From IMG/VR virus record IMGVR_UViG_3300036768_001490, positions 62,001-126,000 of that record: 64,000 nt of DNA. The stretch is one strand, 5' to 3'. The notes beneath the pieces were generated by a model. That model searched no databases. It saw only the letters and a program-made list of their open reading frames with translations, and had not been told where the DNA came from. This document shows positions 20,168-60,652 of the stretch, piece by piece. The translations under genes and the position numbers were made by a program. The stretch comes from a virus. How positions within the stretch are numbered: the stretch's first letter is position 1; every line of letters starts with the position of its first letter.

Positions 20168-23100
20168 CTAGCACTCCATCAGGTCGTCTCCCGCCGCCAG
20201 CTGGCACGCCAGCTTCCTGCTGCCATCTTGCAGCACGAACTCATGGTTGCGGGTGCATACCAGCGTGGCTCCGTCCGCCAGCTCGACCTCCACCAGCGTG
20301 GACGCGGGCACCCGGTAGTGGAACCAGTCCGTGACGGCGTACCAGCCTGCCTCCTGGCCCTCCAGGCCCCGCGCGCGGACGCGCAGAGGCAGACGTCCCT
20401 CCACCACCTGCCGGATCGTCCGCGGCCCCTGGTCCGTGTGCAACACGGTGTCGCCCAGGAAGCAGCCCATTTCCCCTCCCTTGGACGGGCTCTCGTCCAG
20501 GGAGTACGCGCCCCCGCCGCGGCCCTGGCCCTTGGAATTGCCGGACAGCATCGGCTTGCCGTTGCGACGGACATACAGCAGACCTGTCTCCATTTCCGCG
20601 CAGTAGACGATGCCGTTGTAGTCCTTGGTCCAGAAACGGCCCTCGCCCGGACCGGCCCAGGCATCGGTGCGCTCCGGCACCACGCGGCAGACCCAGGAGG
20701 GCAGGAAGTGGGAACTGGGCCCGGGCGGCCGCCGCTGCACGATGGCGCCAAGTCCCGCCCGGATGAACAGCTCCTGGAAATCGTCCGCCAGGCCCCGGGA
20801 CAGGGACACGTAGCCCAGGCGCCGCCCCGCCTCGTCCCTGCCGCAGCTAGCCAGCCAGGCGGCACAGGTCCGGCGCAGCACGTCCGGCGGCTGCTCCAGC
20901 AAGTGGCGTGGCAGGCGCTTGGAGCGGGCATGCCCGCCGTACCGCCGCAGGTGTTGCGCAAGAGGACGGTGCGCCAGGACGTAACCCTTACCGGGGACGT
21001 ACTCCCACGGCAGGGCCAGACGTTGCAGCAGCTCCTCCAGCGCCGCAGCCCGCGCCGGCCCGTCGCCCGGCTTTTGCCCACGGACGAAGAAGGTGACGTC
21101 CGCGCGCCGCGGCGTCACCCGGGCATGGCCCGCGCCGGCCCACCAGCCGACCAGCTCGGCGTAGTCCCCGCAGTCCATCTCCTGGCCGCACACGAGCAGT
21201 CTGGCAGCGCAGACCTGGCCATTCTCCACTGGCCAGCCAAACTGGGGCACGCGGAAGCGGCGGCCATGCACCTCCTGCGCCGGCAGCAGGGCGCACACCG
21301 GGTCGGGACACTGGCCCAGGTCCGCGTACAGGCGGTGGTTTCCCGTGACCAGGTAGTCGAGGTCGCGGCTCGTGAAGCCGTACAGGGTGCCACGGAAGGA
21401 AGCCCGGATGAGGCGCAGCGGCCGCTCGAACACCAGCCGGCCGCCACGCACCGTGGCCAGCTCGTCGTCGCAGCGCACCTGGGGCCAGGGCACCCAGCCA
21501 CGGGCAGTCAGGGCCTCCGTGGCGGCATCGAAGCACTCCGCCGTGTGGTGCAGCTTCATGAAGAAGCGGTTGCCGGTAGCGATCCCGCGGACCTTCATGT
21601 CCCTTTCCGGCCAGAAGATGTCCTCGGTGTCCTTCAGGCCGTGCCGCTCCAGCTGCCGCCGCACCCAGGCGGTCATGTCCTCCTCGCCCTCGAAATCAGT
21701 CACCTTGATGGGGCGTCCCAGCTTCCGGGCCAGCTTGCCCAGCATGGCCTCCGCGATCTGGGCCGGGTTGACACGGGTGATGACGCCGAGCGGGTTCAGC
21801 AGGACTTCCAAAGGCTCGCCGTCCTCGCCCCGCGGCATCAGGCTGTCTGGCACAATGGCGGCGACCACGCCCTTGTCCCCGTAGCGCCCGGACATCTTGT
21901 CGCCGACCTGCATTGGCTCGACGGACTTGACCACGACGACCGGCCCGCTCTTGCTCCAGACCACGTCGGTGACGACGCCCGGCTGGTGGTGCTTCCACAG
22001 CACGCTCTCGTCGTTGTACCCAGGCTGCTTCTTCCGGTGGACCTTGTTCTGTGCATGCTCCCGCTGCCGCGCCGCCAAGATGAGCGGGTCGCCGTACTGG
22101 ACGACCGTGCCCGGCTTGACCGTGCCGTCGTCGTTGATGGTGTCCAGCACCTTCCGCTCGAACTTCTGGGGAAAGAGGCCGATGAAATCGCGCTTGCCCA
22201 GCTTGTGTCGGTCGCTCACCTCCAGACTGTGCTGGTACATGTGCTCGGACGACATCTTCTTGGCCATGCCCTCGGAGATCACGACGGCGTCCTCGTAGTT
22301 GTACCCCAGGTAGGGCCAGTAGGCCACGCGGGCATTGACCCCCAGGGCCATCGCGCCGTTGTTGTCCGTGTAGTTGCTCCGGGCCAAAAGCTGGCCGCGT
22401 CGGAAGTTGTCGCCTGGTCGGACCAGGGGGATCTGGTGGATGAACGTCTTGCGGTTGAATGGATAGTTGTCGTACAGCTCGATCTCTTCCTTCCGGCCAT
22501 CCGCGTACTGGACCTTGATTACTCCGTCACGGACGTCGATGACCCGTCCGTCCGCACCAGCCTCCACTGCGCCAAGGTGCTTGCCGTACTCTTCCTCAAA
22601 AGATCTCTTCCCCTTGGACTCTGGTGTGCCGGATTGTACAAGCGGAGCCTCGGCGGCGATGAGAGGAAGGGCCTGCGTAATGTAGCGGCTGCCCATCGCC
22701 ACGCGCTGTCCCTTGACCATGCTTTTAAGCGGCACCAGGTTGCCCAGAGGGCTGAACGTGTCCTCGAAATGAGGGATGACAAAGTCGATGTCTTTCTTGC
22801 GCACATAGGACAGTTTGCCTCCCTTCATCACAGGCACGCGCTTGCTGTCCCAGCGGAGGACGTCCGGCGTGGCCACGGCCGCGTCGGCCAGGTCGCGCGG
22901 CCCCTTCCAGACCAGCTTTCCCCTCCGGTCGAGCAGCTGCACGTACAAGCTGCCGTCACTCCCCTTGCGCGCACCCCGGGCCACATGCAGGTCCACGCCT
23001 GCCCGGAAGCTGTTACCAGACCAGTGACCCGGAGTGCCGTCCCGGCGGACGTAGAGAAGTCCGCCCGGCACCGTGGCGCAGTAGACGGGGCCGTCGTAGT

Positions 23101-25330
23101 CCAGCCGGTAGTAGGACGCTGGCGATGCGCCCCATTCCTCGTCGCCAGCATAGAGGCGGACGCGGTGCCGGCGCCGCTGCCCGTCCGGCTCAGGACGCAG
23201 CACGCTGGGGATGCCCAGCGTGAAGGCCAGCAGGACCATCTGCTTGGCCAGGGCCAGGCTGCTAGACTGGAACTGGACGAACCGGCCGTGCCGGTCCTTC
23301 CTTCCACCGGCCAGCAGCAGGACCGCGTACAGGCGGCGGCGGGACTCCAGGCTGCCGGCCAGCAGACAATCCGGCAGCCTGCGGCCGTGTGGACCGTCCA
23401 GCTCCCGGCAGAGACCGGCCAGGCGCCTGTCCTCCAACACGAAGACCTGGCCGGCCGCGTCATACTCCCAGACAAGTCCCAGGCGCGTCAGCAGGGCGGT
23501 GAGCCGCGCGTGCTGGGAACGGTACGCTTGCGGACGGCAAGACAGGCGCAGCCTGTCCGGGTTGATGACGTCTTCCTCCTGGTCAGCCGTCCCGGCCGCG
23601 GCCGTGTACCAGCAGACCAGCTCCGCCCAATCCTCCGCCGACCCGGGCCGACCCGAGGTCCACTCCTCCCAGGCACCGTATAGATCATCGCCGCGGTAGC
23701 AGGGACCGCCGCCGAGATGGAGGCGGGGCCGGCCAAAGGCTGCCGCGGCCGTCTCTTCCTGGTAAGTCCCGTCCGCCTGGCCGCGCGGCCGCACCCACAG
23801 GCGATGGTCCGGCGTGACCAGATAGCTCAGCAGCCGCGTCCGCACACCCAGCAGCTTGCCACGGTAATGGCCACAGTGCAGCTGCGTGGGCCGGTGCCAC
23901 TCCACGGTGCCACCGACCAGGCAGGCCAGCTCGTCCTTCTGGGCCACTTCCGGCCACGCCTTCCAGCCGGAGCGAGTCATCACCTCGGTCCGGGCGTCGT
24001 AGCACTCCGGCGTGCGCAGCGGGTCGATGAAGCCCAGGTGCGACGGCTGCACGGAGCGGGCCTCGTCCGGAATGGAGTCGATGTTCGGGATGCCGCCCTC
24101 TCCCATGCGCGTGATCCGCGTCTGCTTGTCAAACACTTCCGCCGGGTTGATCTCCTCCAGCGCCTCTGCCAGGCCGCTGCCCAGCAAGACCTCCTCGATC
24201 TGAGGCGTCAGGGCACCGCTCGGCATCTTGTCCAGCGAGCCGGCCAGGGAGACCTTGCGGAACAGCTGCGCCAGGGTCCGGCCGTGGTCGCGGGCGATGC
24301 GCTCGGCGAACATGTCCTCGGGACCGAGGAAGACCTGGTAAGCCAGGTGGTCGCGGTCGTCCGGGTCGGTTTCCCGGCGGCTGACCTGGAGCAGCTTCTG
24401 CGTGGCCTTGAGGATGACCTCCTTGCTGAGCCGGTCATACGGCTGCCCCAGGGTGTGGCGGGTGACTTCCGGGTCCAGCTCCATCGCCTGGAACTTGGCG
24501 ACCAGCTTTTGCCGTTCGCTGCCCTCGTCCCCGTCCCGCTCGTTCTTCCGCAGCAGGCGGTCGGCCAGTTTTCGCATGGTCCCCCGGTCGGGATACTGGG
24601 CATTGGCGGCGTACAGATCGTTGCCCCAGTAGGCCCGCACCTCCCGGTCGGTGGCCCCCATAGCTTGCAGCAGCGGCAGTAGCGGCATCTCCGCCTGGCC
24701 CAGGCGGATCTTGAACAATCCCTTTTCTGGGTCCAGGAAGTAACGGTGCGAGACGCCCTTCCCTGGCAGCACGTTGACGTGGCTTTCCAGCTCCCCGTTG
24801 TCCTTGATGCGGGTGAAGATGCCCGGCCGCAGCCGTTGCTGGTGGCTGACCGTGTACTCGTTGCCCCGGTGGATGAACGTCCCCAGGCTGGACAGATAGG
24901 GCACGCGCGCGATGACCTGGGTGCGACGTTGTAGCTCCTTGCCAGTGGCCGAGTCCTCCAGCACCCAGGTGCCCTGCAAGCGCCGGGCCAGCGTGCCGCC
25001 CGTGAGAACGGCCTGCTTGCGCTGACGGCGAGAGAAGCGCTCCGGGTCGGCCCACTTCACGTCGGTCAGGCGCAGACGGTGCTTGCCGTCATCCAGCGGA
25101 GCAATGGACTGGGCGGCATGGAGCACGTTGTCGTAGAGGGAACGGCGCGTGGCATCGGTGTCGCCAAAGGCGCGCAATGCCGGCAGAGGTGACGGCGGAG
25201 CCGCGCCGGCGCCGGCGAGCACGGCGTCGGCCCTCGTTGGTGGCAGTAGCGACGACACGGCTTGCCCCTTCCTTGCCAAGTCACCTTCCCGTCCGCCGCT
25301 ACCGTGTCCGGCCGGACGGAGCGCGGCCAT
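20168..25330 (-). CDS. rpoB (N-terminal part): RNA polymerase beta with two inteins and a C-terminal IntN
   Basis: The precursor has 1720 residues. Exteins are 1-442, 774-1265 and 1599-1622. Beta signatures include FIHRGNEYTVSHQQRLRPG (residues 152-170), HLGFIDPLRTPE, GYNYEDAVVISEG, the catalytic-site lysine motif MQVGDKMSGRYGDKGV, LLNPLGVITRVN and MKLHH, then YSLDESPSKGGEMG. Two large inteins interrupt at RTPE and HHTAE; the chain then stops inside a third, at residue 1720, leaving an N-terminal half. After two cis events and one trans event the beta part would continue into the next gene's product. The start at 25330 has GGGGG upstream and overlaps the previous gene by 32 bp. No alpha, omega or sigma subunit is seen in the window. 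Confidence 0.93.
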   Translation of the reverse strand: MAALRPAGHGSGGREGDLARKGQAVSSLLPPTRADAVLAGAGAAPPSPLPALRAFGDTDATRRSLYDNVLHAAQSIAPLDDGKHRLRLTDVKWADPERFSRRQRKQAVLTGGTLARRLQGTWVLEDSATGKELQRRTQVIARVPYLSSLGTFIHRGNEYTVSHQQRLRPGIFTRIKDNGELESHVNVLPGKGVSHRYFLDPEKGLFKIRLGQAEMPLLPLLQAMGATDREVRAYWGNDLYAANAQYPDRGTMRKLADRLLRKNERDGDEGSERQKLVAKFQAMELDPEVTRHTLGQPYDRLSKEVILKATQKLLQVSRRETDPDDRDHLAYQVFLGPEDMFAERIARDHGRTLAQLFRKVSLAGSLDKMPSGALTPQIEEVLLGSGLAEALEEINPAEVFDKQTRITRMGEGGIPNIDSIPDEARSVQPSHLGFIDPLRTPECYDARTEVMTRSGWKAWPEVAQKDELACLVGGTVEWHRPTQLHCGHYRGKLLGVRTRLLSYLVTPDHRLWVRPRGQADGTYQEETAAAAFGRPRLHLGGGPCYRGDDLYGAWEEWTSGRPGSAEDWAELVCWYTAAAGTADQEEDVINPDRLRLSCRPQAYRSQHARLTALLTRLGLVWEYDAAGQVFVLEDRRLAGLCRELDGPHGRRLPDCLLAGSLESRRRLYAVLLLAGGRKDRHGRFVQFQSSSLALAKQMVLLAFTLGIPSVLRPEPDGQRRRHRVRLYAGDEEWGASPASYYRLDYDGPVYCATVPGGLLYVRRDGTPGHWSGNSFRAGVDLHVARGARKGSDGSLYVQLLDRRGKLVWKGPRDLADAAVATPDVLRWDSKRVPVMKGGKLSYVRKKDIDFVIPHFEDTFSPLGNLVPLKSMVKGQRVAMGSRYITQALPLIAAEAPLVQSGTPESKGKRSFEEEYGKHLGAVEAGADGRVIDVRDGVIKVQYADGRKEEIELYDNYPFNRKTFIHQIPLVRPGDNFRRGQLLARSNYTDNNGAMALGVNARVAYWPYLGYNYEDAVVISEGMAKKMSSEHMYQHSLEVSDRHKLGKRDFIGLFPQKFERKVLDTINDDGTVKPGTVVQYGDPLILAARQREHAQNKVHRKKQPGYNDESVLWKHHQPGVVTDVVWSKSGPVVVVKSVEPMQVGDKMSGRYGDKGVVAAIVPDSLMPRGEDGEPLEVLLNPLGVITRVNPAQIAEAMLGKLARKLGRPIKVTDFEGEEDMTAWVRRQLERHGLKDTEDIFWPERDMKVRGIATGNRFFMKLHHTAECFDAATEALTARGWVPWPQVRCDDELATVRGGRLVFERPLRLIRASFRGTLYGFTSRDLDYLVTGNHRLYADLGQCPDPVCALLPAQEVHGRRFRVPQFGWPVENGQVCAARLLVCGQEMDCGDYAELVGWWAGAGHARVTPRRADVTFFVRGQKPGDGPARAAALEELLQRLALPWEYVPGKGYVLAHRPLAQHLRRYGGHARSKRLPRHLLEQPPDVLRRTCAAWLASCGRDEAGRRLGYVSLSRGLADDFQELFIRAGLGAIVQRRPPGPSSHFLPSWVCRVVPERTDAWAGPGEGRFWTKDYNGIVYCAEMETGLLYVRRNGKPMLSGNSKGQGRGGGAYSLDESPSKGGEMGCFLGDTVLHTDQGPRTIRQVVEGRLPLRVRARGLEGQEAGWYAVTDWFHYRVPASTLVEVELADGATLVCTRNHEFVLQDGSRKLACQLAAGDDLMEC
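20171..20464 (-). mobile_element. Split intein, N-terminal half (IntN)
   Basis: The last 98 residues of the beta gene begin with Cys1 (CFLGDTVLHTDQGPRTI) after GGEMG, contain the block-B-like CTRNHEFVL and then stop after LAAGDDLMEC. No endonuclease sequence follows; the complementary 41-residue IntC starts the next gene 31 bp downstream. Confidence 0.88.
20537..21535 (-). mobile_element. Intein 2 in RNA polymerase beta
   Basis: The intein spans 333 residues (1266-1598). Cys1 (CFDAATEALTARGW) follows KLHHTAE; TGNHRLYA is the block-B-like motif; the end is LLYVRRNGKPMLSGN before Ser+1. The central domain again looks like a decayed LAGLIDADG enzyme (LVGWWAGAGH and CAAWLASCGRD). Similarity of start, end and layout to intein 1 suggests that the two share an origin. 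Confidence 0.88.
23012..24004 (-). mobile_element. Intein 1 in RNA polymerase beta
   Basis: The intein spans 331 residues (443-773). Cys1 (CYDARTEVMTRSGW) follows RTPE; a block-B-like TPDHRLWV is at positions 64-71; the end is GLLYVRRDGTPGHWSGN before Ser+1. The middle resembles a LAGLIDADG endonuclease, but the two expected acidic repeats read LVCWYTAAAG and LYAVLLLAGG, without the catalytic aspartates, so homing activity is probably lost. Confidence 0.88.
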
Positions 25331-39649: not shown

Positions 39650-39742
39650 CAGCCGAAAGCGACCACAAGAAGACATGCCTTGCTGATAGCTAAGAAAAAG
39701 AACGACGCCCCAGCCGATCCGCTTCCTGCGAATCGGCTGGGG
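39650..39742 (-). repeat. Cassette repeat R0 (partial) with terminator
   Basis: The left-most, partial copy of the intergenic repeat. It contains GCGACCACA-AGA-ACATGCCT and TAGCTAAGAAAAAGAACGAC as in the other copies. The terminator (39708-39742) has 15-base arms, CCCCAGCCGATCCGC and GCGAATCGGCTGGGG, with one mismatch, followed by a T-rich run (TTCTTTTTCTTA) on the minus strand. It closes the 151-residue gene. Confidence 0.8.
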
Positions 39743-39747
39743 AGAGA

Positions 39748-39775
39748 GGAGTAGTCACTACATGGTGACTACTCC
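39748..39775 (-). repeat. Stop-codon hairpin of cassette A
   Basis: Arms GGAGTAGTCAC and GTGACTACTCC, 11 bp perfect, loop six bases; the stop codon of gene A is in the right arm. Analogous hairpins end genes B and C. Confidence 0.75.
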
Positions 39776-40224
39776 ATCACAGCCCTAACCTCCTCCATGA
39801 CGATGGAGGATGCCTTCATCCAGCGGATGAAGGCATCAAAAGAACTCGCTCTTTTGATGCCTTCCCTGGCCAGCTCCAACCTCCATCCTGGCGGACCATG
39901 CGTACCGTCCACCTGGATGGTCTCCCCACCCAGGCGGAACATTATCTTCCCATCCCTCGATGGGAAGAATGCAGCCCCCCCACTACCCTCCGTCAGCATC
40001 CTTGCCATTTCCGAGACAATCCTGTTCCCTTCCTGGGTTCTCACCTTCTCCCAGCCCCATAGGGCCGGGTGGTGACACTTCCTTTCCCTCCCGGCCAAGT
40101 CGGCCAGGAGGATGACCGCTACGTGGTGGTCGACGCCTTGGCGTCGACCTCCACGCCCTTGGCGGGAGATAATATACTCCTCTGCCGCTTGGCGGAGGAG
40201 TCCAAAGGTATTGGTGGTGGACAT
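39769..40224 (-). CDS. Cassette gene A, hairpin-rich paralogue of gene B
   Basis: The 151-residue protein has AAAGGAGG eight bases upstream of its ATG. Its core (AVILLADLAGRERKCHHPALWGWE, quoted in part, then RIVSEMARML and GPPGWRLELAREGIKRASS) aligns with cassette gene B over HPA-WGW, RI and GPPGWRL-AREG, so the two are diverged paralogues. No enzyme motif or membrane helix is seen. The coding DNA contains at least eight perfect hairpins, including arms of 13 bp (39809-39837), 12 bp (39832-39861) and 11 bp over the stop codon (39748-39775). Function unknown. Confidence 0.7.
   Translation of the reverse strand: MSTTNTFGLLRQAAEEYIISRQGRGGRRQGVDHHVAVILLADLAGRERKCHHPALWGWEKVRTQEGNRIVSEMARMLTEGSGGAAFFPSRDGKIMFRLGGETIQVDGTHGPPGWRLELAREGIKRASSFDAFIRWMKASSIVMEEVRAVME
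40128..40149 (-). repeat. Ten-base palindrome in gene A
   Basis: Arms GGTCGACGCC and GGCGTCGACC with only TT between, inside the coding sequence of gene A. Confidence 0.75.
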
Positions 40225-40254
40225 AAGAGTCCCCTCCTTTGCGGCATCTAGCCG

Positions 40255-40542
40255 CAGTTGTGTGGTAATAAAAATTGGACAGGAACGTCCTGTCCACCTT
40301 TTGTGACATCAATGGAGAAGATATTTAGGCAGGAGGCGGAGCACCCTGGTCAGAGCAGGGAGCATGGCGCAGGTAGCGCGCCTGAGCCTGATGGGAAGTA
40401 CACTGGCCTGATTGGTGGGAAACGTCTCCCGTGCTTGCTGACCCACGCCAGACGAAAGCGACCACAGGAAAACATGCCTGGCTGATAACTAAGAAAAAGA
40501 ACGACGCCCCAGCTGGTCCGCTTCCTGCGGATCGGCTGGGGA
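40255..40542 (-). repeat. Cassette repeat R1: leader of gene A and terminator of gene B
   Basis: About 280 bases shared with R2 and R3 at roughly 90% identity by eye. From right to left it carries the terminator of gene B (arms near 40507-40541, minus-strand run TTCTTTTTCTTAG), a conserved core of about 150 bases with an AT-rich CTAAATATC block, and the leader hairpin GGACAGGA/TCCTGTCC (40277-40295) just before the Shine-Dalgarno of gene A. Confidence 0.85.
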
Positions 40543-40544
40543 AG

Positions 40545-40573
40545 AGGAGTAAGCCGCTACGCGGCTTACTCCT
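40545..40573 (-). repeat. Stop-codon hairpin of cassette B
   Basis: Arms AGGAGTAAGCCGC and GCGGCTTACTCCT, 13 bp perfect, loop TAC. It contains the stop codon of gene B. Confidence 0.8.
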
Positions 40574-41102
40574 TTCGGATCTCTTCCGTGATACTCCTCA
40601 CGACCGTACTCCAGATGGGTAGGTCATGAGGGATGGATATTACGTGAATCATTCTAAGTTGGGGTGGATACCCCGCTGATCGGAGTAGCCCTTCACGGGC
40701 TACTCTTAACCTCCATCCTGGAGGTCCGTGCTCGCGGCCGAGCAGTACCCTGCGTCCGTCATCCGTGACGAACACCAGCCTTTCTATCTCGGGGTGAAAT
40801 ACCCCGCCGTAAAACGGCGGCGATCCCCCTACGCTGCAGCGTCTTGCGACGGCCCGGATCGCCATCGACCATACCTCAATCCTTGCTTTGGGCTGTTGGC
40901 CGCTGCCCCAGCCCCAGAAAGCCGGGTGGCGTGCGCATCCCTCCTCTTCTCCGGCCATGTCAAGCATGGCGATGGCCGCAGAGTGTGCTGCAAGCTCCTC
41001 CGAGGAAACGTCTTTGCGATCCAGCCCGGCGAGGCGTAGGTAGTATTCCTCGGCCATGTTTGCCGCCATTATGAACCTGGTGGTTTCGTGATGGGACATC
41101 AT
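40566..41102 (-). CDS. Cassette gene B, paralogue of gene A
   Basis: The 178-residue protein has AAAGGAGG before two adjacent ATGs. Residues about 40-75 (AAIAMLDMAGEEEGCARHPA, then FWGWG) and GPPGWRLRVAREGLLRSAG match cassette gene A; the middle WSMAIRAVARRC resembles a stretch of the 27628-28035 protein. There is a Gly-rich loop (GGSPPFYGGVFHPEIER) and no membrane segment. The coding sequence holds hairpins such as arms of 13 bp over the stop codon (40545-40573) and 9 bp at 40683-40705, and an ACGCTGCAGCGT palindrome (40831-40842). Function unknown. Confidence 0.7.
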   Translation of the reverse strand: MMSHHETTRFIMAANMAEEYYLRLAGLDRKDVSSEELAAHSAAIAMLDMAGEEEGCARHPAFWGWGSGQQPKARIEVWSMAIRAVARRCSVGGSPPFYGGVFHPEIERLVFVTDDGRRVLLGREHGPPGWRLRVAREGLLRSAGYPPQLRMIHVISIPHDLPIWSTVVRSITEEIRKE

Positions 41103-41124
41103 GGTGTCCTCCTTTGCGGCTGTG

Positions 41125-41419
41125 CCGCAGTTGTGTGGTAATAAAAATTGGACAGGAACGTCCTGTCCGCGGCATTTATTGTGACATCAATGGAGAAGAT
41201 ATTTAGGCAGGATGTGAAGCACCCTGGTCAGGGCAGGGAGCATGGCGCAGGTAGCGCGCCTGAGCCTGATGGGAAGTACACTGGCCTGATTGGTGGGAAA
41301 CGTCTCTCGTGCTTGCTGACCCACACCAGCAGGAAGCTACCGCGAGAAAACACGACGGGCTGATAGCTAAGAAAAAGAACGACGCCCCAGCCGATCCGCT
41401 TCCTGCAGATCGGCTGGGG
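41125..41419 (-). repeat. Cassette repeat R2: leader of gene B and terminator of gene C
   Basis: A second full copy of the repeat. Terminator arms CCCCAGCCGAT (41385-41395) and ATCGGCTGGGG (41409-41419) are followed on the minus strand by a T-rich run. The leader hairpin GGACAGGA/TCCTGTCC is at 41150-41168. The central 150 bases are nearly identical to R1 and R3. Confidence 0.85.
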
Positions 41420-41428
41420 AGAGAGAGA

Positions 41429-41460
41429 GAGGAGTAGTCACCGAGTAGTGACTACTCCTC
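41429..41460 (-). repeat. Stop-codon hairpin of cassette C
   Basis: Arms GAGGAGTAGTCAC and GTGACTACTCCTC, 13 bp perfect, six-base loop. It contains the stop codon of the HEAT-repeat gene. Confidence 0.8.
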
Positions 41461-42366
41461 TTCTTTCTTGCCGCCAATCCTCCTCATGGCCTCGGCGACG
41501 GACTGTCGTACTCTTTCGTTTTGGTCCAGCCTATACCTGTTCAAGGCTGGCACGGCGTCCTTGCCGTCCGGGCCGAGCTTGCCGATGGCCTTGCACACAT
41601 GCTCTCGGATCATCCTGTTCTCGAGGGCTTTGACAAGAACCGGCAGCAAGGCCCTACCCTTGGAGGGGAAATCATCCACGATCTCCCCGAGGACCTCGAC
41701 CGCTGCTACCTGGGCGATATAGTGAAAGTAACCCGAACTAGAGTTCGGGTCGGATGAGATCAGCTTGACCATCATGGCGACCGTTTCGCCATCGTCCGGC
41801 GACACGGCGCCAAGGGCCTTGACCAGGCCCCTCACGTTTACGGTCTTGCTGTCCAGGCAGCGCTGAAGCGCTGCCCTCATAAGCGGGGCAAGCGGCCGAG
41901 CACCACGCTTCATCTCTTTGACTTCGTCGGCCAACGCCAGCAACTCTCTTGGCTGGCCGACTGCAAAGACGACCGCGTACTTGTACAGGTCTGGGCGAAC
42001 CTGCCGCAACGCTTTGGCGGCAGCCTGCACAACCTCCTTGTTGTTAGCCGACACCGCCATCGCCTCACACAGGGCATAGGCAGACTCCTCTTCCCTGGAC
42101 TTTGCCAATGCCTTGGCGGCGATCTTCTCGGCATCCGTACCTTCATGGCGCGCAATGGCTTCCTTGCACTTGGCCTTCGCCTGCTCTCCTCTCACGTCGC
42201 AGCCGCAGCCGCATTGCCAACCTAGCTTGGCCGCTGCACATGCCCCGATCACCATCCCGATCACCACTCCGAGCAGCAGGGCGGGAATGATGCCCTTGCT
42301 GCGGGAAGTTGCCGGCTGCAGCAGCACGACTACCTTGCACGAGTCGAGGACGAAGATGGTGTTCAT
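41452..42366 (-). CDS. Cassette gene C, membrane-anchored HEAT-repeat protein
   Basis: The 304-residue protein has GGGGAG before its ATG. A hydrophobic helix at residues about 27-50 (IIPALLLGVVIGMVIGACAA) is followed by a cysteine cluster (CGCGCD) and then HEAT/armadillo-like helical repeats (for example VAAVEVLGEIVDDFPSKG, then AIGKLGPDGKDAVPALNR, then ERVRQSVAEAMRRIGG). Such repeats form curved scaffolds for protein binding; the helix suggests it faces the membrane. The coding DNA again has perfect hairpins at 41731-41750 (9 bp), 41774-41792 (7 bp) and 41856-41875 (9 bp). Function unknown. Confidence 0.7.
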   Translation of the reverse strand: MNTIFVLDSCKVVVLLQPATSRSKGIIPALLLGVVIGMVIGACAAAKLGWQCGCGCDVRGEQAKAKCKEAIARHEGTDAEKIAAKALAKSREEESAYALCEAMAVSANNKEVVQAAAKALRQVRPDLYKYAVVFAVGQPRELLALADEVKEMKRGARPLAPLMRAALQRCLDSKTVNVRGLVKALGAVSPDDGETVAMMVKLISSDPNSSSGYFHYIAQVAAVEVLGEIVDDFPSKGRALLPVLVKALENRMIREHVCKAIGKLGPDGKDAVPALNRYRLDQNERVRQSVAEAMRRIGGKKEEE

Positions 42367-42414
42367 AACGAACTCCCCAAATGGGCGACGCCCAACTGAC
42401 GCACATGCGTCAGT

Positions 42415-42694
42415 CGTGGTTAGATTGGACAGGAACGTCCTGTCCGCGGCATTTATTGTGGCACCAATGGAGAAGATATTTAGGCAGGAGGCGGAGCACC
42501 CTGGTCAGGGCAGGGAGCATGGCGCAGGTAGCGCGCCTGAACCTGATGGGAAGTACACTGGCCTGGTTGGTGGGAAACGTCTCTCGTGCTTGCTGACCCA
42601 TGCCAGCCGGAGGCTACCACGAGAAAACATGCCGGGCCGATAGCTAAGAAAAAGAACGACCCCAGCCGATCCGCTTCCTGCAGATCGGCTGGGG
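42415..42694 (-). repeat. Cassette repeat R3: leader of gene C and terminator of gene D
   Basis: The third full copy. The leader hairpin is at 42427-42445; the conserved core and CTAAATATC block follow; terminator arms CCCCAGCCGAT (42660-42670) and ATCGGCTGGGG (42684-42694) close gene D. The copy differs from R1 and R2 at scattered positions only. Confidence 0.85.
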
Positions 42695-42709
42695 GGAATG
42701 CGGGCAGCC

Positions 42710-42856
42710 CTAAACGGGCCACCCGCAGGTGGGACACTCCTCCGTGAAACACGGAGGAGTGTCCTCACCGCAGTGAGGACACCTGTCGGCCCCCACTGCC
42801 TCCTCCTCATCGAGGAGGATGTCGTCGTCGTACTCGAAGTCGTAGTAGTACATCAT
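42710..42856 (-). CDS. Cassette gene D, 48-aa zinc-ribbon protein
   Basis: This gene is too small for routine gene finding. Its two adjacent ATGs follow AAGGAGGGG. The product is 48 residues: an acidic N-terminus (YYYDFEYDDDILLDEEE) and a CPHC-x9-C-x4-CPTC-type zinc ribbon (RCPHCGEDTPPCFTEECPTC in part), ending GWPV. The spacing of the four outer cysteines fits a rubredoxin-like zinc knuckle used for protein or nucleic-acid binding. The coding DNA is dominated by three perfect hairpins (15, 10 and 8 bp), two of which share an arm. It occupies the same repeat-flanked layout as genes A-C. Confidence 0.7.
   Translation of the reverse strand: MMYYYDFEYDDDILLDEEEAVGADRCPHCGEDTPPCFTEECPTCGWPV
42732..42764 (-). 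repeat. 15-bp perfect hairpin in gene D
   Basis: Arms GGACACTCCTCCGTG and CACGGAGGAGTGTCC with loop AAA. Its right arm overlaps the left arm of the next hairpin (42759-42782). Confidence 0.85.
42759..42782 (-). repeat. 10-bp hairpin in gene D, exclusive with the 15-bp one
   Basis: Arms GTGTCCTCAC and GTGAGGACAC with loop CGCA. Because it shares bases 42759-42764 with the previous hairpin, both cannot form at once in full. Confidence 0.8.
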
Positions 42857-42879
42857 TTCCCCTCCTTAAGGGATAACGT

Positions 42880-42945
42880 TTATTGGACAGGTACGTCCTG
42901 TCCACCTTTTATGACACCAGTGGAGGGGATATTTAGGCGGGGAGG
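42880..42945 (-). repeat. Cassette repeat R4 (partial): leader of gene D
   Basis: A short copy with the leader hairpin (42885-42903, variant loop), the ATGTC-like bases and the CTAAATATC block, before the sequence changes to the terminator of the metacaspase gene. Confidence 0.7.
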
Positions 42946-42975
42946 ATGGAGCGCCTGAATGTTGGCAGAGAAAGG

Positions 42976-43043: not shown

Positions 43044-43847
43044 TCAGAACAGGGGAGTATTCCGAAGCGCCGGCAGCGCGTTAAGCTGAGGCGTCTGCTG
43101 GAAGTCCCAGGAGGGCAAATACTGCCGCAACTGGCGGAAAACGTCCTGATACGTGCCGCCCCGCGACTGCACCAGCCGGAAGGCACGCAGGGCGTAATAG
43201 GTCATGGCGCCGCAGAAGCGGCCGCCAATCCGCGCGTCCGCGCTGTACTCATGGTCCCGGCAGGCCGAGAAGTGAATGACGCCAGGCAGAGGCTGGTCCT
43301 GCCACCGGACCTGCTGGCCAAAGGCGCGCTCCATGCCATGCCACAACGGACTGTCGGGCGAAAGGAAGTGGGACGGCGGCAGGAAACGGACCCTCCGCTC
43401 CGACACGCTGCTGTCCGTGGCGAAGCGGAAGACCGAGCCCGAATGGCAGCAGTCACTGATCCAGAGCAGGCGCGCTCCCGGACGCAGCCGGCCAAACAGA
43501 TCGGCCAGTTCGTCGTCCAGGATCAGGTTGCGGCCATTGTCGCCCATGTCCGCCGGGCACAGCGCCTCGTCCCGGCCGTCCGGCTCGTCCCCGGAGAGGT
43601 CCGGCAGCCAGGTGCCGTGGCCAGAATACGTCACGGCGCTGCACGTGCCCGGCGACGTCTGGTCGATGACCTGCCGCAGGGCCGTCAGGATGTTACAGCG
43701 GCTGGCCTGGCGCTCCAGCATGGAGACGACGTCGAAGCCCTGGCCATGCAGGAAGCTGCCCCAGTCGTTGGCATCGTTGATGCAGCCGCGCAGCTCAAAC
43801 GGAGTGCCCGTGTAATTGATGCCGATGCACAGTGCCTTGCCCGACAT
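43044..43847 (-). CDS. Metacaspase-like cysteine peptidase (C14)
   Basis: The 267-residue protein opens KALCIGINYTGTPFELRGC and follows the p20-like caspase-fold order: VTYSGHGTWLPD with His77, GRDEALCPAD with an Asp suited to the basic S1 pocket, and LLWISDCCHSGSVF with catalytic Cys134. The His-Cys dyad is intact. The C-terminal part (HFSACRDHEYSADA, then GAMTYYAL) looks like the p10-like region. Metacaspases usually cut after Arg or Lys and act in proteolysis or cell-death-like processes. It has its own terminator and GAGGAGGG ribosome site. It is a rare find in phage and may process virion or host proteins. Confidence 0.8.
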   Translation of the reverse strand: MSGKALCIGINYTGTPFELRGCINDANDWGSFLHGQGFDVVSMLERQASRCNILTALRQVIDQTSPGTCSAVTYSGHGTWLPDLSGDEPDGRDEALCPADMGDNGRNLILDDELADLFGRLRPGARLLWISDCCHSGSVFRFATDSSVSERRVRFLPPSHFLSPDSPLWHGMERAFGQQVRWQDQPLPGVIHFSACRDHEYSADARIGGRFCGAMTYYALRAFRLVQSRGGTYQDVFRQLRQYLPSWDFQQTPQLNALPALRNTPLF

Positions 43848-50572: not shown

Positions 50573-51220
50573 TCATGCCAGCGCCGCCAGGTTGACCCAG
50601 ACCATGTGGTGCCGCGCCAGCGTCCGCTGGATTTCCTGGAACTGGCAGTCAAAGCTGTCCCGGCCGTTGGCCAGGCAGTGCCGAGGGTCCATGCCGGCAG
50701 CATAGGACGTACCGCCGTCGATCCCCAGCGTATACACTTCCTTGCAGCCGGCCAATGCCAGCAAGTTGAAGGCGGCCACCGCGCTGAAGTAGCGGACCCG
50801 CACCCGCCGGAGCCCGGGATGGTGACGCTGCCGCGGCACGCGCGTCGAGTTGTAAGACCACAGGCGGCCGGCAGCGGCCAGGTGGTCCAGGCCGCCCCAG
50901 CCGTCCCGCACCAGCTCCTCCAGGGTGAAATGGCCAGGGCCCATGTTCCGGTGCGGCACCCAGGGGAGGACCACGTCCGGGACATGGGGCAGGACCACGC
51001 CGTCCGCGGACAGGACGTCCGCGCGGCAGTCCAGGTACGCCTCCAGGTCCATGAAGTGGACGCAGGTGGCCGGCCAGACCCGGCACGCATGGTTGAGGGC
51101 CAGGACGTGAAAGCGGTCGAGGTCGAAGCAGTCCCGCAGGTCCAGCGACGGCCCCTTGCCCAGGACCAGCCAGGGCCTGGAACGGTACGTGCCCAGCCGC
51201 TCCACCGCGTCACCGATCAC
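50573..51220 (-). CDS. Second Maf/MptE-like protein
   Basis: The GTG start at 51220 gives 215 residues. RPWLVLGKGPSLDLRDCFDL, then RFHVLALNHACRVWPATCVH, matches the 'GKGPS' loop and following strand of DUF115-type proteins; VRVRYFSAVAAFNLLALAGC and KEVYTLGIDGG continue the Rossmann-like core. It is only distantly similar to the protein at 46205-46903. Likely a nucleotide-sugar-related enzyme in the same pathway. Confidence 0.6.
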   Translation of the reverse strand: MIGDAVERLGTYRSRPWLVLGKGPSLDLRDCFDLDRFHVLALNHACRVWPATCVHFMDLEAYLDCRADVLSADGVVLPHVPDVVLPWVPHRNMGPGHFTLEELVRDGWGGLDHLAAAGRLWSYNSTRVPRQRHHPGLRRVRVRYFSAVAAFNLLALAGCKEVYTLGIDGGTSYAAGMDPRHCLANGRDSFDCQFQEIQRTLARHHMVWVNLAALA

Positions 51221-51250
51221 ACGGAGGCCCTCTCTTTCCCGCCCATCTGC

Positions 51251-52267
51251 CTACCACACCCTGCCGTCCACCACGCGCAGGTTCTCCACATGGAAGCCGC
51301 CGTCCCGGGAAATCTCGACGTAGGCGAAGCCGTGGTTCCAGTTGTTGAGCGGCGCATACTCCGGATGCATGTCGCACAGGCAACCCGTGGAGAAGGTGGT
51401 GATGACCCGCTGCTCCAGGTCTTTCTCGCTGTGCTCGCTGCTGTGATGGAAATGGCCGCCCAGTACATGAGTCTTGGCCCGAAGGAAGAAGCCCCGGGCC
51501 GGGTTGACCGGATTGGAAATGCGGAAGCGGTACTCATGCCCGTGGATGACGTTCAGCTTGCCCAGCTGGATCGGCCTCCGGTCGGCCACCACCTGGATGC
51601 GCTGCTTCTTTAGCCCGACTACATTGTCCCAGCTGAAGGCGGGCACGTCCAGCAGCTCCGGCGCCTTGACCCGCATGTAGCGCTCGTACCTCTCCTCGTG
51701 GTTGCCAAGCTTGTAGACGATGCGGGCCCGAGGAAACTGCCGCCGCAGGCCAGACAGGAAGTATTGCAGGCTGCACAGCTCTTCCCAGAAGTCGCGCTTG
51801 CGCGGGTCACGCTCCCAGTGACTCACCGCATAGTGGTCGGCAATGTCGCCGTTGAGCAAGAGGAAGTTCACCTTGCGCGCAGCGGCAAGGTCCAGGGCCA
51901 GACGCAGGCTGGTCTCGTTGTGATAAGGGATGTGCAGGTCAGACAAGACCAGGGCGCGCATGGGGCCCGGAAAAGACACCGCCCGCCAGGAGTCGAAGTA
52001 GGACTGGGGCGGCGGGACCACGTTCTGCCAGGGGTCGCCCGGCCGCCGCGCGGGCCGGCGGCGAGAACTGTCCCCCTGCGGCCGACGGCTGGACGCGCCC
52101 GCCTGGCCCAGACGCCGACGGACCAGCGTGCGGGCATGCTCGATGCTGTTGAACAGCTCAGGGTGCTCCCGCACCGCCTTGCGCGCCAGGGTCAGGGCCG
52201 GCGCGTCCGGGAACCGATCAAGCAGCTCATCGACCACGGCGCCGGCTGCCGTCATGCGCCTGGCCAC
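51251..52267 (-). CDS. Calcineurin-like metallophosphoesterase
   Basis: The GTG start at 52267 has AAGGAGG six bases upstream. After a basic N-terminal stretch of about 95 residues, the 338-residue protein carries all metal-site motifs of this family in order: LSDLHIPYH, LLNGDIADHY, KLGNHEERY, VIHGHEYRF and GGHFHHSSE. Catalysis is therefore likely intact. Relatives include phage nucleic-acid and phosphoester hydrolases; the substrate cannot be told from sequence. Confidence 0.85.
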   Translation of the reverse strand: MARRMTAAGAVVDELLDRFPDAPALTLARKAVREHPELFNSIEHARTLVRRRLGQAGASSRRPQGDSSRRRPARRPGDPWQNVVPPPQSYFDSWRAVSFPGPMRALVLSDLHIPYHNETSLRLALDLAAARKVNFLLLNGDIADHYAVSHWERDPRKRDFWEELCSLQYFLSGLRRQFPRARIVYKLGNHEERYERYMRVKAPELLDVPAFSWDNVVGLKKQRIQVVADRRPIQLGKLNVIHGHEYRFRISNPVNPARGFFLRAKTHVLGGHFHHSSEHSEKDLEQRVITTFSTGCLCDMHPEYAPLNNWNHGFAYVEISRDGGFHVENLRVVDGRVW

Positions 52268-52284
52268 GGACCGCCTCCTTGTCG

Positions 52285-52677
52285 TTACACCCGCGCCTGC
52301 ACCCGCATCCCGCCCTGGTCGTGCCGCTCGATGTCAGACGGGTCAACGGCGTCGGTCCAGTACCATTCCACCAGTTCCACGTCGGTGACAGCCTCGAAGC
52401 GGTGCCACTCGCCCCGTCCGCAGACCAGCTTCTGACCCGCCGTGAGACGGACCGTGGCGCACGGGTCCTGGTCCCCACGCTGACGGTAAAAATGGACCAG
52501 CAGCTCACCGCGGACCACGTAAAAGGCGTTAGACTTGTCGCGGTGACAGTGCTGGCTGCTGTAACCGCCCGCCCGGATGGAAGCGTGGTGGACCTCGAAA
52601 GCGTGGCTGCGCTCCAGACCACGGTTGGTCCCCCAGGACTTCTCCAAGGCCACCGGCTCCGTCACTTCCGCTGGCAT
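52285..52677 (-). CDS. Cupin-domain protein
   Basis: The start at 52677 (MPAEVTEPVALEKSWGTN) has GGGAG upstream. The 130-residue protein has the first cupin motif HHASIRAGGYSSQHCHRDKS with two histidines and Lys/Glu, and the second motif VCGRGEWHRFEAV. It resembles the sugar-isomerase type (mannose-6-phosphate isomerase II-like) but is shorter. A role in sugar handling is plausible in this neighbourhood. Confidence 0.6.
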   Translation of the reverse strand: MPAEVTEPVALEKSWGTNRGLERSHAFEVHHASIRAGGYSSQHCHRDKSNAFYVVRGELLVHFYRQRGDQDPCATVRLTAGQKLVCGRGEWHRFEAVTDVELVEWYWTDAVDPSDIERHDQGGMRVQARV

Positions 52678-52721
52678 GCTCTCTTCTCCCCGGCGAAGAA
52701 CACCACGGCCGGCCCAGCGCC

Positions 52722-53345
52722 TCATTCCGTCACGGCCGGCGGCAGGCTCAGGGAGGACTGCCACGGCGGCGCCGGCGCTGCCAGCACCGCGCACCAGTAG
52801 GGCCGGCCCGAGCTGTCATAGGACAGGCCGAAGCCGGCATGCTGGTAGGCCGTGTCCTGGATGTTCTGCCGGTGGCCCGGACTGCTCAGCCAGGCCGCCA
52901 CCACCTGCTCCGGCCCCCGCTGGCCCAGGGCAATGTTCTCTCCACCCGTGCGCAGGCGATAACCCGCCAGGTGGACCCGTTCGGCAAGATTACGGCCAAA
53001 GAAGCCCGGCGTCCCCGTCTCCTGCCAGTGCTCCAGGGACCGGTTCAGAGACATCCAGTCCGCATGCTTCTGGGCCGCCAGGTGCAGCTTCCGGTCCAAA
53101 GACAGCGGACGCGCGCCGACCTGGGCGCGAGCCCGGTTGTGCAGCTCCAGCAGCCGGTAAGAAGTCGCGTCCGGTGCCGGCTCCGGCGGCGGAGGAGCTG
53201 GCAAAGGCGGCGGGGCCGAGGGGGACGCCGGGGGCGGAGCAGGCGCGGGCGACGGCGCCCCGCCCAGCGCGGATAGCAGCCAGTCCAGCAGGCTGCCACC
53301 AAGCTGAATGCACAACTGCCACAGGCTCTGCCAGAGCGACGACAT
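52722..53345 (-). CDS. CAP/SCP-domain protein with proline-rich linker
   Basis: The 207-residue protein has a hydrophobic N-terminus (residues 5-25), a long Pro/Ala linker and then a CAP domain: LLELHNRARAQVGARPLSLD, AAQKHADWMSLNRSLEHWQE, LRTGGENIALGQRG and AAWLSSPGHRQNI, which include the His/Glu/His cavity residues. CAP proteins are usually exported and have varied roles. AGGAGG precedes the start. It is placed beside the papain-like peptidase, and both may act outside the cell. Confidence 0.75.
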   Translation of the reverse strand: MSSLWQSLWQLCIQLGGSLLDWLLSALGGAPSPAPAPPPASPSAPPPLPAPPPPEPAPDATSYRLLELHNRARAQVGARPLSLDRKLHLAAQKHADWMSLNRSLEHWQETGTPGFFGRNLAERVHLAGYRLRTGGENIALGQRGPEQVVAAWLSSPGHRQNIQDTAYQHAGFGLSYDSSGRPYWCAVLAAPAPPWQSSLSLPPAVTE

Positions 53346-53399
53346 GGAACGGTCCTCCTCTTCTTTTTTCCTCCCCTGTGCCTGCCACTCCCACCGGCC

Positions 53400-54383
53400 T
53401 CAGCGGCCGCCGCCAGCGGGCAGGCGCCGGTACTGCTGGAAGTAGTCGTGCGCCGGATAGACGAAGCAGCCGTACTCCAGCGTGTCCGCGGGACGGTGAA
53501 TGCCGTCGTCGATGTCCTGGTTGCTGGGCAACTTGCCCGTAAAGGGACGCACCGCGACGGCGTGAGACGGTGGCGGCAGGAAGGACCGCCAGACGGCGGC
53601 GCCGGCCGTGTCCCGCCGCAACAGGAGAGACGGATCCTGCTCGCGCGGGCTGAAGGCGTACGCCCGCCCGGTCCAGGCCGAGACGAACCACTGCCAGGTG
53701 TGCGTGTAGTCGCTGTCCGGATAGTTCGGGTCGATGTAGCGCACCACCCAGTCCCGCGTCCGGTAGCCCTGGCCGTTGTCGAAATCGACCTTGTTGGATG
53801 TGATGTGCGTCAGCAGGATGGCGTGGTTCCCCTCCCGCACGGTAGAGATGCTGGCCACGACGGGCAGCCCCTCCCGCAACTGCTGCATCAGCCAGTCATA
53901 CCCCGCCCGGGTGTTGCCGTGCGGGTTGGTCCGCGCCCGCACACGCAGCGTCCGCAGCCAGTAGGCCACCGCCTCGTCCGTAGCTCCCGAGTGGAAGCCG
54001 ATGCCGCTCTCGACCACCTGGCGCGTGATCGTGGTCAGCGGCGCGATGCCGGCGTGCCGCCCCGCCATCTCCGCGCAGCACCACCAGCAGATGCCGTGGT
54101 CCCGACGGTTGCCCACACGCTCCTGCACGGTGATCGGGGCTTCCTGCCCCCGCGCCGCTGCCGCCAGCAGCAGACAGACAGCCACGACCAACACGTGGAC
54201 GACCGCGGCTACCCAGAACAGCCGCCGTGCCAGCGGACATTTGCCACTGCCTCCACGGGCAGCGTCCTTCTCTTCCCGCAACGGACGGGAACAGGCCCTC
54301 CGGCACACGCCCCGCGACGGACAGGAGGCCCGGCAACGTCCACCACCGTCCGCGTCCGGCCCCACGCCCACGCCACCTGCCAT
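53400..54383 (-). CDS. Membrane-anchored papain-like (C39-type) peptidase
   Basis: The start at 54383 (MAGGVGVGPDADGGG) is chosen because a perfect AAGGAGGT is six bases upstream. A single membrane helix near residues 52-75 (FWVAAVVHVLVVAVCLLLAA) leads to the catalytic domain: GICWWCCAEMAGRHAGI (Cys region), NHAILLTHI (His region) and YIDPNYPD (Asp). This is a papain-like cysteine-peptidase order as in C39-type proteins. The family cleaves peptides or leaders, often outside the membrane. At 327 residues the protein is longer than needed because of an extended C-terminus. Confidence 0.6.
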   Translation of the reverse strand: MAGGVGVGPDADGGGRCRASCPSRGVCRRACSRPLREEKDAARGGSGKCPLARRLFWVAAVVHVLVVAVCLLLAAAARGQEAPITVQERVGNRRDHGICWWCCAEMAGRHAGIAPLTTITRQVVESGIGFHSGATDEAVAYWLRTLRVRARTNPHGNTRAGYDWLMQQLREGLPVVASISTVREGNHAILLTHITSNKVDFDNGQGYRTRDWVVRYIDPNYPDSDYTHTWQWFVSAWTGRAYAFSPREQDPSLLLRRDTAGAAVWRSFLPPPSHAVAVRPFTGKLPSNQDIDDGIHRPADTLEYGCFVYPAHDYFQQYRRLPAGGGR

Positions 54384-54659: not shown

Positions 54660-56345
54660 CTAAATCTCGACTGCCTTGACCATGTCCACGAACCGCTGGC
54701 TGTCGTCAGCCAGGTGCGCGGCCATGACCTCAAAGACCACGTCGCTGAAGCCGCCGATATTCAGCGTTTCGGCAGTCTCCGGGGCCTGGGAGCTGCCGCC
54801 CATCTGCAAGTCACAGCAGATGAGCTTCGGCCGCGGAAACCGACCCAACCGCCGCTGGTTGGCCACAAACTTATCCCACTCATGCACGAGTGCCGTGACA
54901 CAGTGGAACATCCTCACTGACGGCGTTACCCAGCTCTGATTGTCAGAGATCAGGATAACACCGCAGAACGCCCGATCCTTGAGTTTCTCGTTGGCGTGCG
55001 CAACCGGCAAATGGCAGTCGGTGCCGCCACCGCCGAAGCGCGAAAGCCGAGTCGAGATGCTCAGAATCTGATCGCCCGGGTCAGCGCTGAACGGACGGAC
55101 CCAGTCGCTGAATGGCACGACGACCGAGTCGGGATTCTTGCGCAGAATCGCTGCTGAGATCAGCGCCGCCACGTCGATGCACCGCATCTTCGAGGACTGC
55201 CCCGGCTTGTCACGGCGTCCCGTGATCGGCGCAAGCATGGAACCGGAGACGTCGCAGCCAATGACGACAGGGCCAGGGAACTTCGGCACCGCCTCGCACG
55301 CCACCTCCGCGGCATCGTTGAGGGCCTTGCGGATGCAGTACGGGATCTCCTCGCTGGCGTTCAGATACGCCGCGAAGAACTGGTACGGCATCTGCTTGGA
55401 CCGACGGACCTCGTTCATGTCGGCAAGACGGCTGGCCACCTCATCGACCATGCGCGGGTCCCGGAATACACCGTGGCGGTTGAGCGTATTCAGGTTCATG
55501 CGCAACGCCTGGTAGCCCATGTTCCTGGCTATCTCCGCCCACACCGGACTCGGACGGACCAGGCGCCGGGTGGCGCCACAACCCTCGTACACCTCGCCCT
55601 TGACCGCGTCCACCAGGAGATCCCAGCGGATGTAGGTCTTGGCGAACTGCCGCGCAAGCTGCACCTGCTCGTCCGGGTCCGTGGTGCCGCGGAACCGGTC
55701 GAGCAGCCGGATCTCCAGCGGGAGATCGTCGTAGGTAGCCGGCCTCCACTTCTCGACCGGATTGCCGCACAGCCAGCCATACAACGCGCGACGGGCATTG
55801 TTGGGCGGCGTCGGCCGCACCAGGCGCAGCACGTCGCGCAACGACGGGTTCTTGCCGACCGAGGCCGACAGGAGCTTGTCGTCGCTAGCGTTGTTCAGCA
55901 GCCTGGACATGACCCGCTGCTTGGCGTGGCTGAAGCACCGCTTCCTGGTGCCGGCGCCGCTGCGCACCATCTGGAAGGCCGTCAGGATCATCTTGCCACT
56001 GTCCACGACACGGTCAGCAATCCGGTCCCACAGCTTGATGTCCATATCGGCGAGCTTCGCCCAACCCGCCGCCGGGGCGTCCTTGAGCAAACCGTCCCGA
56101 CGCGCGGCAATGCACGCCTTGGCCAAGAACTCGGGCGTCACGCACGCTGCCAGCTCGTGAAACCTGGCAAGCTGCTCGGCGCCGCTCTCGTAGTACGCCC
56201 CGTTGAAGCAGGACGTGAACAGGAACTGTGCCAGGGCATGTTCGGACCCGTAAGCGTAAGCCGAGCCGCCAGCCTGATTGATGGCATCAACCGGGCGGTC
56301 AACCAGGGCGGACGAACTGGTGCCGAAGAGGGACTTGCTGGCCAC
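54660..56345 (-). CDS. rsr: TROVE-domain protein with vWA (Ro60/Rsr-like)
   Basis: The GTG start at 56345 follows AAGGAGG with an eight-base spacer. The 561-residue protein has HEAT-like helical repeats of a TROVE ring (for example LARFHELAACVTPEFLAKAC, RFRGTTDPDEQVQLARQFAK, QALRMNLNTLNRHGVFRD) and a vWA domain with MIDAS residues DVSGSM (365-370) and a GGGGTD motif near 435. Ro60-type proteins bind misfolded RNA and small Y RNAs and take part in RNA quality control with exoribonucleases. It has its own promoter, an upstream structured RNA candidate and its own terminator. Confidence 0.9.
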   Translation of the reverse strand: MASKSLFGTSSSALVDRPVDAINQAGGSAYAYGSEHALAQFLFTSCFNGAYYESGAEQLARFHELAACVTPEFLAKACIAARRDGLLKDAPAAGWAKLADMDIKLWDRIADRVVDSGKMILTAFQMVRSGAGTRKRCFSHAKQRVMSRLLNNASDDKLLSASVGKNPSLRDVLRLVRPTPPNNARRALYGWLCGNPVEKWRPATYDDLPLEIRLLDRFRGTTDPDEQVQLARQFAKTYIRWDLLVDAVKGEVYEGCGATRRLVRPSPVWAEIARNMGYQALRMNLNTLNRHGVFRDPRMVDEVASRLADMNEVRRSKQMPYQFFAAYLNASEEIPYCIRKALNDAAEVACEAVPKFPGPVVIGCDVSGSMLAPITGRRDKPGQSSKMRCIDVAALISAAILRKNPDSVVVPFSDWVRPFSADPGDQILSISTRLSRFGGGGTDCHLPVAHANEKLKDRAFCGVILISDNQSWVTPSVRMFHCVTALVHEWDKFVANQRRLGRFPRPKLICCDLQMGGSSQAPETAETLNIGGFSDVVFEVMAAHLADDSQRFVDMVKAVEI

Positions 56346-56799: not shown

Positions 56800-56851
56800 C
56801 TCGCCGCATGGGACAATGACTTCCTTCCGTCTGCCACGCCCGCAGCCAGCC

Positions 56852-60652
<3,801 letters not shown>

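Follow-up and report, generated by a model that had tools for sequence, protein, structure and literature searches.

Dense hairpins in the coding sequences of cassette-like genes of a probable large phage, with signs of selection on the message

An array of four cassette-like genes and its surroundings

The window analysed here (the whole stretch of 64,000 nucleotides) covers positions 62,001-126,000 of a 182.7 kb (~183 kb) IMG/VR virus record, in which all called genes lie on the minus strand. Its gene products include RNA polymerase beta-type subunits, a ribonucleotide reductase, a DNA polymerase of phage type and a Ro60-like protein, so that it most likely represents a large double-stranded-DNA phage; the relatives of its DNA polymerase are other metagenomic phages. 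A near-identical record (G001; 100% identity across the 10.5 kb compared) contributes no variation. The region of interest is a set of four genes, A-D, with the following features (window coordinates, all on the minus strand):

39708-39742 (-): terminator-like hairpin after gene A
39748-39775 (-): stop-codon hairpin of gene A, 11 bp
39769-40224 (-): gene A, 151 aa orphan, the most folded of 148 genes; perfect hairpins at 39791-39810, 39809-39837, 39829-39864, 39945-39968 and 40128-40149
39809-39864 (-): two overlapping hairpins (13 and 15 bp) at the 3' end of gene A, with the common arm GATGCCTTC
40225-40565 (-): B-A spacer, with the B terminator-like hairpin, a conserved block of ~240 nt, CCTAAATATC, palindrome GGACAGGACGTTCCTGTCC and Shine-Dalgarno; leader hairpin TGCGGC/GCCGCA within it
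40545-40573 (-): stop-codon hairpin of gene B, 13 bp
40566-41102 (-): gene B, 178 aa orphan; hairpins at 40683-40705, 40709-40725 and 40804-40820
41103-41451 (-): C-B spacer, planned as the B-A spacer
41428-41461 (-): stop-codon hairpin of gene C, 14 bp
41452-42366 (-): gene C, 304 aa HEAT-repeat protein; hairpins at 41731-41750, 41774-41792 and 41856-41875
42367-42709 (-): D-C spacer, planned as the B-A spacer; leader hairpin ACTGACGCA/TGCGTCAGT at 42395-42414
42710-42856 (-): gene D, 48 aa, with two zinc-ribbon-like knuckles (CPHCG, CPTCG); hairpins at 42732-42764 (15 bp), 42759-42782 (10 bp) and 42801-42819
42857-42960 (-): gene D leader, with the CCTAAATATC element and the palindrome

Read along the minus strand, each cassette runs from the CCTAAATATC element through the palindrome GGACAGGACGTTCCTGTCC (which differs by one base before D), a leader hairpin, a Shine-Dalgarno sequence, the gene and a stop-codon hairpin to a terminator-like stem. 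The CCTAAATATC element has only four copies in the 183 kb, one per gene, 80-118 nt upstream of A-D, and the leader palindrome of A and B is followed by a T-run. Every cassette has a stop-codon hairpin whose form is kept while its letters differ: the arms are GAGTAGTCAC/GTGACTACTC in A and C and GAGTAAGCCGC/GCGGCTTACTC in B, and the D hairpin includes two G-U pairs (as judged by eye and from the transcript fold). Judged by this layout, the array appears to consist of four single-gene transcription cassettes, each with a promoter-like element, a leader hairpin, a gene and a terminator-like hairpin.

Full-length comparison of the A, B and C spacers gives 83-88% identity. By contrast, the paralogous A and B proteins (E 7e-19) share only 30%. 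Searches for relatives of A and B beyond each other found none; one match in another genome (L082) was discarded, as it lay antisense to a longer reading frame resembling a transporter-binding protein. Structure prediction for gene B was poor (pLDDT 49). The coding hairpins of the array have no sequence in common.

Several other elements of the record deserve mention in their own right. A caspase-domain (Peptidase_C14) gene lies immediately upstream of the array (43044-43847, minus strand), and a Ro60-like protein with TROVE and Ro60 vWA domains, a member of an RNA-binding family, is encoded 12 kb from it (54660-56345, minus strand) and is a possible candidate for a partner of structured RNA. 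The RNA polymerase beta-type protein at 20168-25222 (minus strand; 1684 aa) also matches a thymidylate synthase family over residues 403-477, possibly owing to an inserted element, e.g., an intein. Repeats occur as low-complexity tracts (CTGCGG-type and GGAGCAG-type, partly without a called gene) at 56828-56992 and 58357-60061, and as about 37 copies of a 44-60 nt direct repeat at L008:11147-13456, where there is no called gene (record 50,966-54,164).

Hairpin density and folding against codon-preserving controls

We counted perfect stems with arms of at least 9 bp and loops of 2-8 nt across the 64 kb window, and found that 14 of 28 fall within the 3.0 kb from 39,748 to 42,782; the longest arm in the window is 15 bp. 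Nine of these 14 lie wholly inside open reading frames (four in A, one in B, two each in C and D), three are located on or next to the stop codon of gene A, B or C, and the other two are palindromes in leaders. A sequence-only reading of this DNA had pointed to eight hairpins inside codons of A-D, and all eight are present. Its placement within codons holds for nine of the 14 strongest stems but not for the five stop-codon or leader hairpins; for example, the hairpin at 40545-40573, cited as coding, spans the gene B stop, and most of it is 3' of the reading frame. Another, cited as 39832-39861 with 12 bp, exists but really extends over 39829-39864 with a 15-bp arm. That flanking genes look different was borne out, as stems with arms of at least 9 bp were absent from 11 of 12 neighbouring genes tested, the remaining one (47113) having a single 9-bp stem (reached by 10/300 shuffles).

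The same reading had named codon-shuffled genes as the control, and their hairpin density did not equal that of A-D, in which the excess persists. Specifically, we permuted synonymous codons within each gene 300 times, keeping protein and codon counts, and counted stems with arms of at least 7 bp. Gene A has 5 such stems against 0.88 expected, a number reached by 0/300 shuffles, while genes B (3 vs. 0.44) and C (3 vs. 0.57) were each matched by 4/300; for gene D (4 vs. 2.36) the count was reached by 2/300 shuffles and the total arm length by 0/300. Folding energies relative to these shuffles gave z-scores of -6.5 for A, -3.3 for B, -3.5 for C and only -1.5 for D, compared to a mean of -1.1 for 24 control genes. 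A stricter shuffle that also kept dinucleotides left z-scores of -3.7, -2.5 and -3.1 for A, B and C; it gives no test of D, only 2% of whose bases can move.

Predicted folds of the transcripts, likewise proposed in the sequence-only reading, were extreme: that of gene A is a chain of hairpins at -290 kcal/mol vs. -216 for dinucleotide shuffles (z -10.9), and that of gene D has a z-score of -10.3. In the hairpin-rich gene islands, deviations per 80-nt window range from -3.0 to -10.6 kcal/mol, while the median over the record's genes is -0.6. In A, B and C antisense folding is almost as extreme as sense folding. Gene starts are not unusually folded, the codon phase of the stems is biased equally in genes and shuffles, stable tetraloops on the mRNA strand show no strand difference (3 sense, 4 antisense), and a scan of the arrays with Rfam 15 found no catalogued structured RNA at gathering score.

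We rejected a genome-wide hairpin property, since the remaining genes of the record are near expectation (160 stems observed vs. 134 expected). A scan of the whole record found one other hairpin-dense region, at 136.7-142.2 kb, with three paralogous genes, M1-M3:

L010:10600-16170 (record 136.6-142.2 kb): second cassette array rich in hairpins; its genes are MORN-fold paralogues, its spacers are repeated and it has terminator-like stems

The predicted fold of M1-M3 includes MORN-type repeats, the best PDB matches being radial-spoke and SET7/9 MORN domains (probability 1.00, none passing E 0.001). Taken jointly, A, B, M1, M2 and a small gene, K, contain 22 stems vs. 3.2 expected, and the stem count of M1 was not reached in 100 shuffles. 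Against codon shuffles the folding z-scores are -9.0 for M1, -4.6 for M2 and -5.2 for M3; among 148 genes ranked by foldedness, A comes first and M2 second, with M1, C, M3 and B within the top ten.

Smaller phages that are apparently unrelated carry homologues of the MORN genes (P1, P2 and Q1), which are also strongly folded (z of -5.1, -3.8 and -4.7, respectively). In the small phages the P1, P2, DUF669, AAA_24 and DUF3799 genes are strongly folded, as opposed to the clamp, helicase-like and primase-like genes (the latter two named by eye). Corresponding protein positions again carry hairpins, though with other sequences and in some cases a different pairing register (arms GCACCCGG/CCGGGTGC in M1a, TGTACCAGG/CCTGGTACA in M1b and CTGCACAA/TTGTGCAG in P1 and Q1). 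The related phages G004 and G013 have strongly folded genes, yet these hold only 0-1 perfect stems with arms of at least 8 bp. As a separate observation, phages with MORN homologues carry type II hammerhead ribozymes (Rfam RF02276, 52-53 bits) between small genes; in one of them two lie ~700 nt apart, flanking a stretch with a gene:

L025:2369-2437 and 3073-3139 (-): type II hammerhead ribozymes, RF02276
L048:4384-4450 (-): type II hammerhead ribozyme, RF02276

Selection on the message and competing explanations

To separate the RNA from the DNA level, we compared stems interrupted by G-U with stems interrupted by A-C. An A-C interruption on the mRNA strand is a G-U on the other strand, so that a strand-symmetric cause acting on DNA would enrich both alike. 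G-U-interrupted stems (at least 8 bp) numbered 8 against 2.4 expected in the first array, 14 against 5.1 in the second and 7 against 2.5 in the other phages, whereas A-C-interrupted stems numbered 3 against 2.4, 3 against 3.3 and 2 against 2.0, with the first array independent but the other two sets not fully so, as the MORN genes are kin. Both kinds were near expectation in the rest of the genome, and the asymmetry also held in a single-interruption version. Enrichment of G-U but not A-C interruptions therefore favours selection on mRNA and points to the transcript, rather than to a strand-symmetric DNA process. Selection for RNA structure inside genes, one of two causes put forward in the sequence-only reading, is thus supported by both the codon-shuffle folding z-scores and this asymmetry in three gene sets.

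When homologues were compared, compensatory changes in stems were not in excess (14 vs. 18 expected) and G-U pairs were not preferred above controls. Stem pairs were altered less often than control pairs (36% vs. 49%), and many stems were lost or replaced. Because individual stems turn over, the target of selection would be overall foldedness, not particular hairpins, with stems replaced over time; compensatory change is then supportive but not required.

The hairpin excess is genuine, and its action seems to be on message RNA: it stands over codon shuffles, returns in the second array and in homologues from other phages, and comes with a G-U strand bias. Our preferred reading, which we hold to be slightly more probable than not, is that these are single-gene mRNA cassettes whose coding sequences are under mRNA-level selection for dense chains of local hairpins, with the protein left unchanged. 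Such structure may shield transcripts from ribonucleases or RNA-targeting defences, or may pace translation, and its purpose is probably stability or translation control. Resistance to, or control of, nucleases or ribosomes had also been suggested in the sequence-only reading. A bolder version, offered tentatively and in our view rather unlikely, is that of armoured mRNAs, i.e., accessory genes kept in single-gene cassettes and selected, over their entire coding sequence, to form a hairpin chain, so that the transcript would resist host ribonucleases or RNA-guided defence and stay translated while its stems are replaced.

An alternative that we consider rather unlikely is that palindrome-generating mutation (polymerase template switching or fold-back copying) makes the stems, which then decay neutrally and have no role in RNA. 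The process has been documented elsewhere (PMC8794818, PMC8604942), and it would account for hairpins turning over between paralogues without excess compensation and for the similarly extreme folding of sense and antisense strands in A-C. It also suits the overlapping 13-15 bp hairpins of gene A, which look like serial copies and whose repeated 9-mer lies in different reading frames. As these two hairpins share an arm (GATGCCTTC), they cannot both form fully; selection on RNA alone therefore leaves them unexplained, and they are the observation that it explains least well. By contrast, a strand-symmetric process does not predict the enrichment of G-U over A-C stems, and the excess is limited to particular genes. 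A scan for template switches across the paralogues and the two small phages, of low power given diverged homologues, turned up 6 clusters of the reverse-complement type (one counted twice), compared to 2 in the reverse and 5 in the complement control, and so lent no direct support to the mutation process that was the other cause suggested in the sequence-only reading. Such a process may nevertheless supply new stems.

Acquisition from a donor (host or element) with structured genes, the hairpins being inherited and without present function, appears improbable to us. The array genes have 59-62% GC vs. ~66-67% around them, A and B failed the coding model of the phage, and the MORN homologues reside in phages of ~57% GC, all of which would fit a foreign source; but searches found no relative in bacteria or plasmids, unmaintained perfect stems would decay, and structure is limited to some of the genes in the donor-like phages. 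We think it a little less probable still that the hairpins are regulatory switches, i.e., alternative terminator or attenuator folds controlling transcription or translation of each gene. The leader and stop hairpins, the terminator-like stems, the T-run that follows the leader palindrome in A and B, and the overlapping alternative stems in A have that appearance, yet most coding stems lack T-runs, their sequence, position and register vary among homologues, and folding at gene starts is unremarkable. Chance is very improbable as a cause, and so is a side effect of protein sequence and base composition. Two kinds of codon shuffle led us to reject both, as protein- and codon-preserving shuffles fail to reproduce the pattern in A-C, M1-M3, P1 and Q1. 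The exception is gene D: its freedom to vary is too limited, its repeated Cys-Pro motif aids pairing, and it still gives 2.4 stems when shuffled.

If selection on the message is the cause, the arrays would be a clear example from nature of strong mRNA structure built into particular protein genes by a DNA phage, and would offer a direct, recodable test of how coding structure affects mRNA survival and translation. If a mutation process is responsible instead, they would afford a rare view of the birth of hairpins inside coding DNA.

Comparison with known systems

Rickettsia palindromic elements and REP repeats are copies of one sequence family, unlike the coding hairpins described here, which share no sequence. 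What the two have in common with our arrays is the presence of palindromes in or near genes (REP: PMC3733652). From each of the three closer precedents that follow, our arrays depart in one or more tested features. RNA hairpins created by template switching (PMC8794818; in yeast coding genes, PMC8604942) resemble ours in their perfect local stems, short loops and changes to both coding arms, but are defined by clustered one-step changes, which in our low-power comparison were not above controls.

Across the tree of life, local mRNA folding in coding regions is under selection (PMC7063772), and genes there likewise fold more strongly than protein- and codon-preserving shuffles. Unlike that general pattern, the effect is confined here to a few gene islands and takes the form of perfect stems of 8-15 bp, so the present case would be a strong, island-restricted form of known selection on coding-region folding.

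The nearest precedent is found in the coding palindromes of Nematomorpha mitochondria, which are up to 284 bp long and perfect in an all-or-none manner, imperfect ones being absent as a class (PMC6649704). There, as here, many perfect inverted repeats lie inside real protein genes and are gained or lost between relatives. The two systems differ in tested features: arms in our arrays do not exceed 15 bp, and stems with G-U interruptions show roughly 3-fold or greater enrichment on the mRNA strand.
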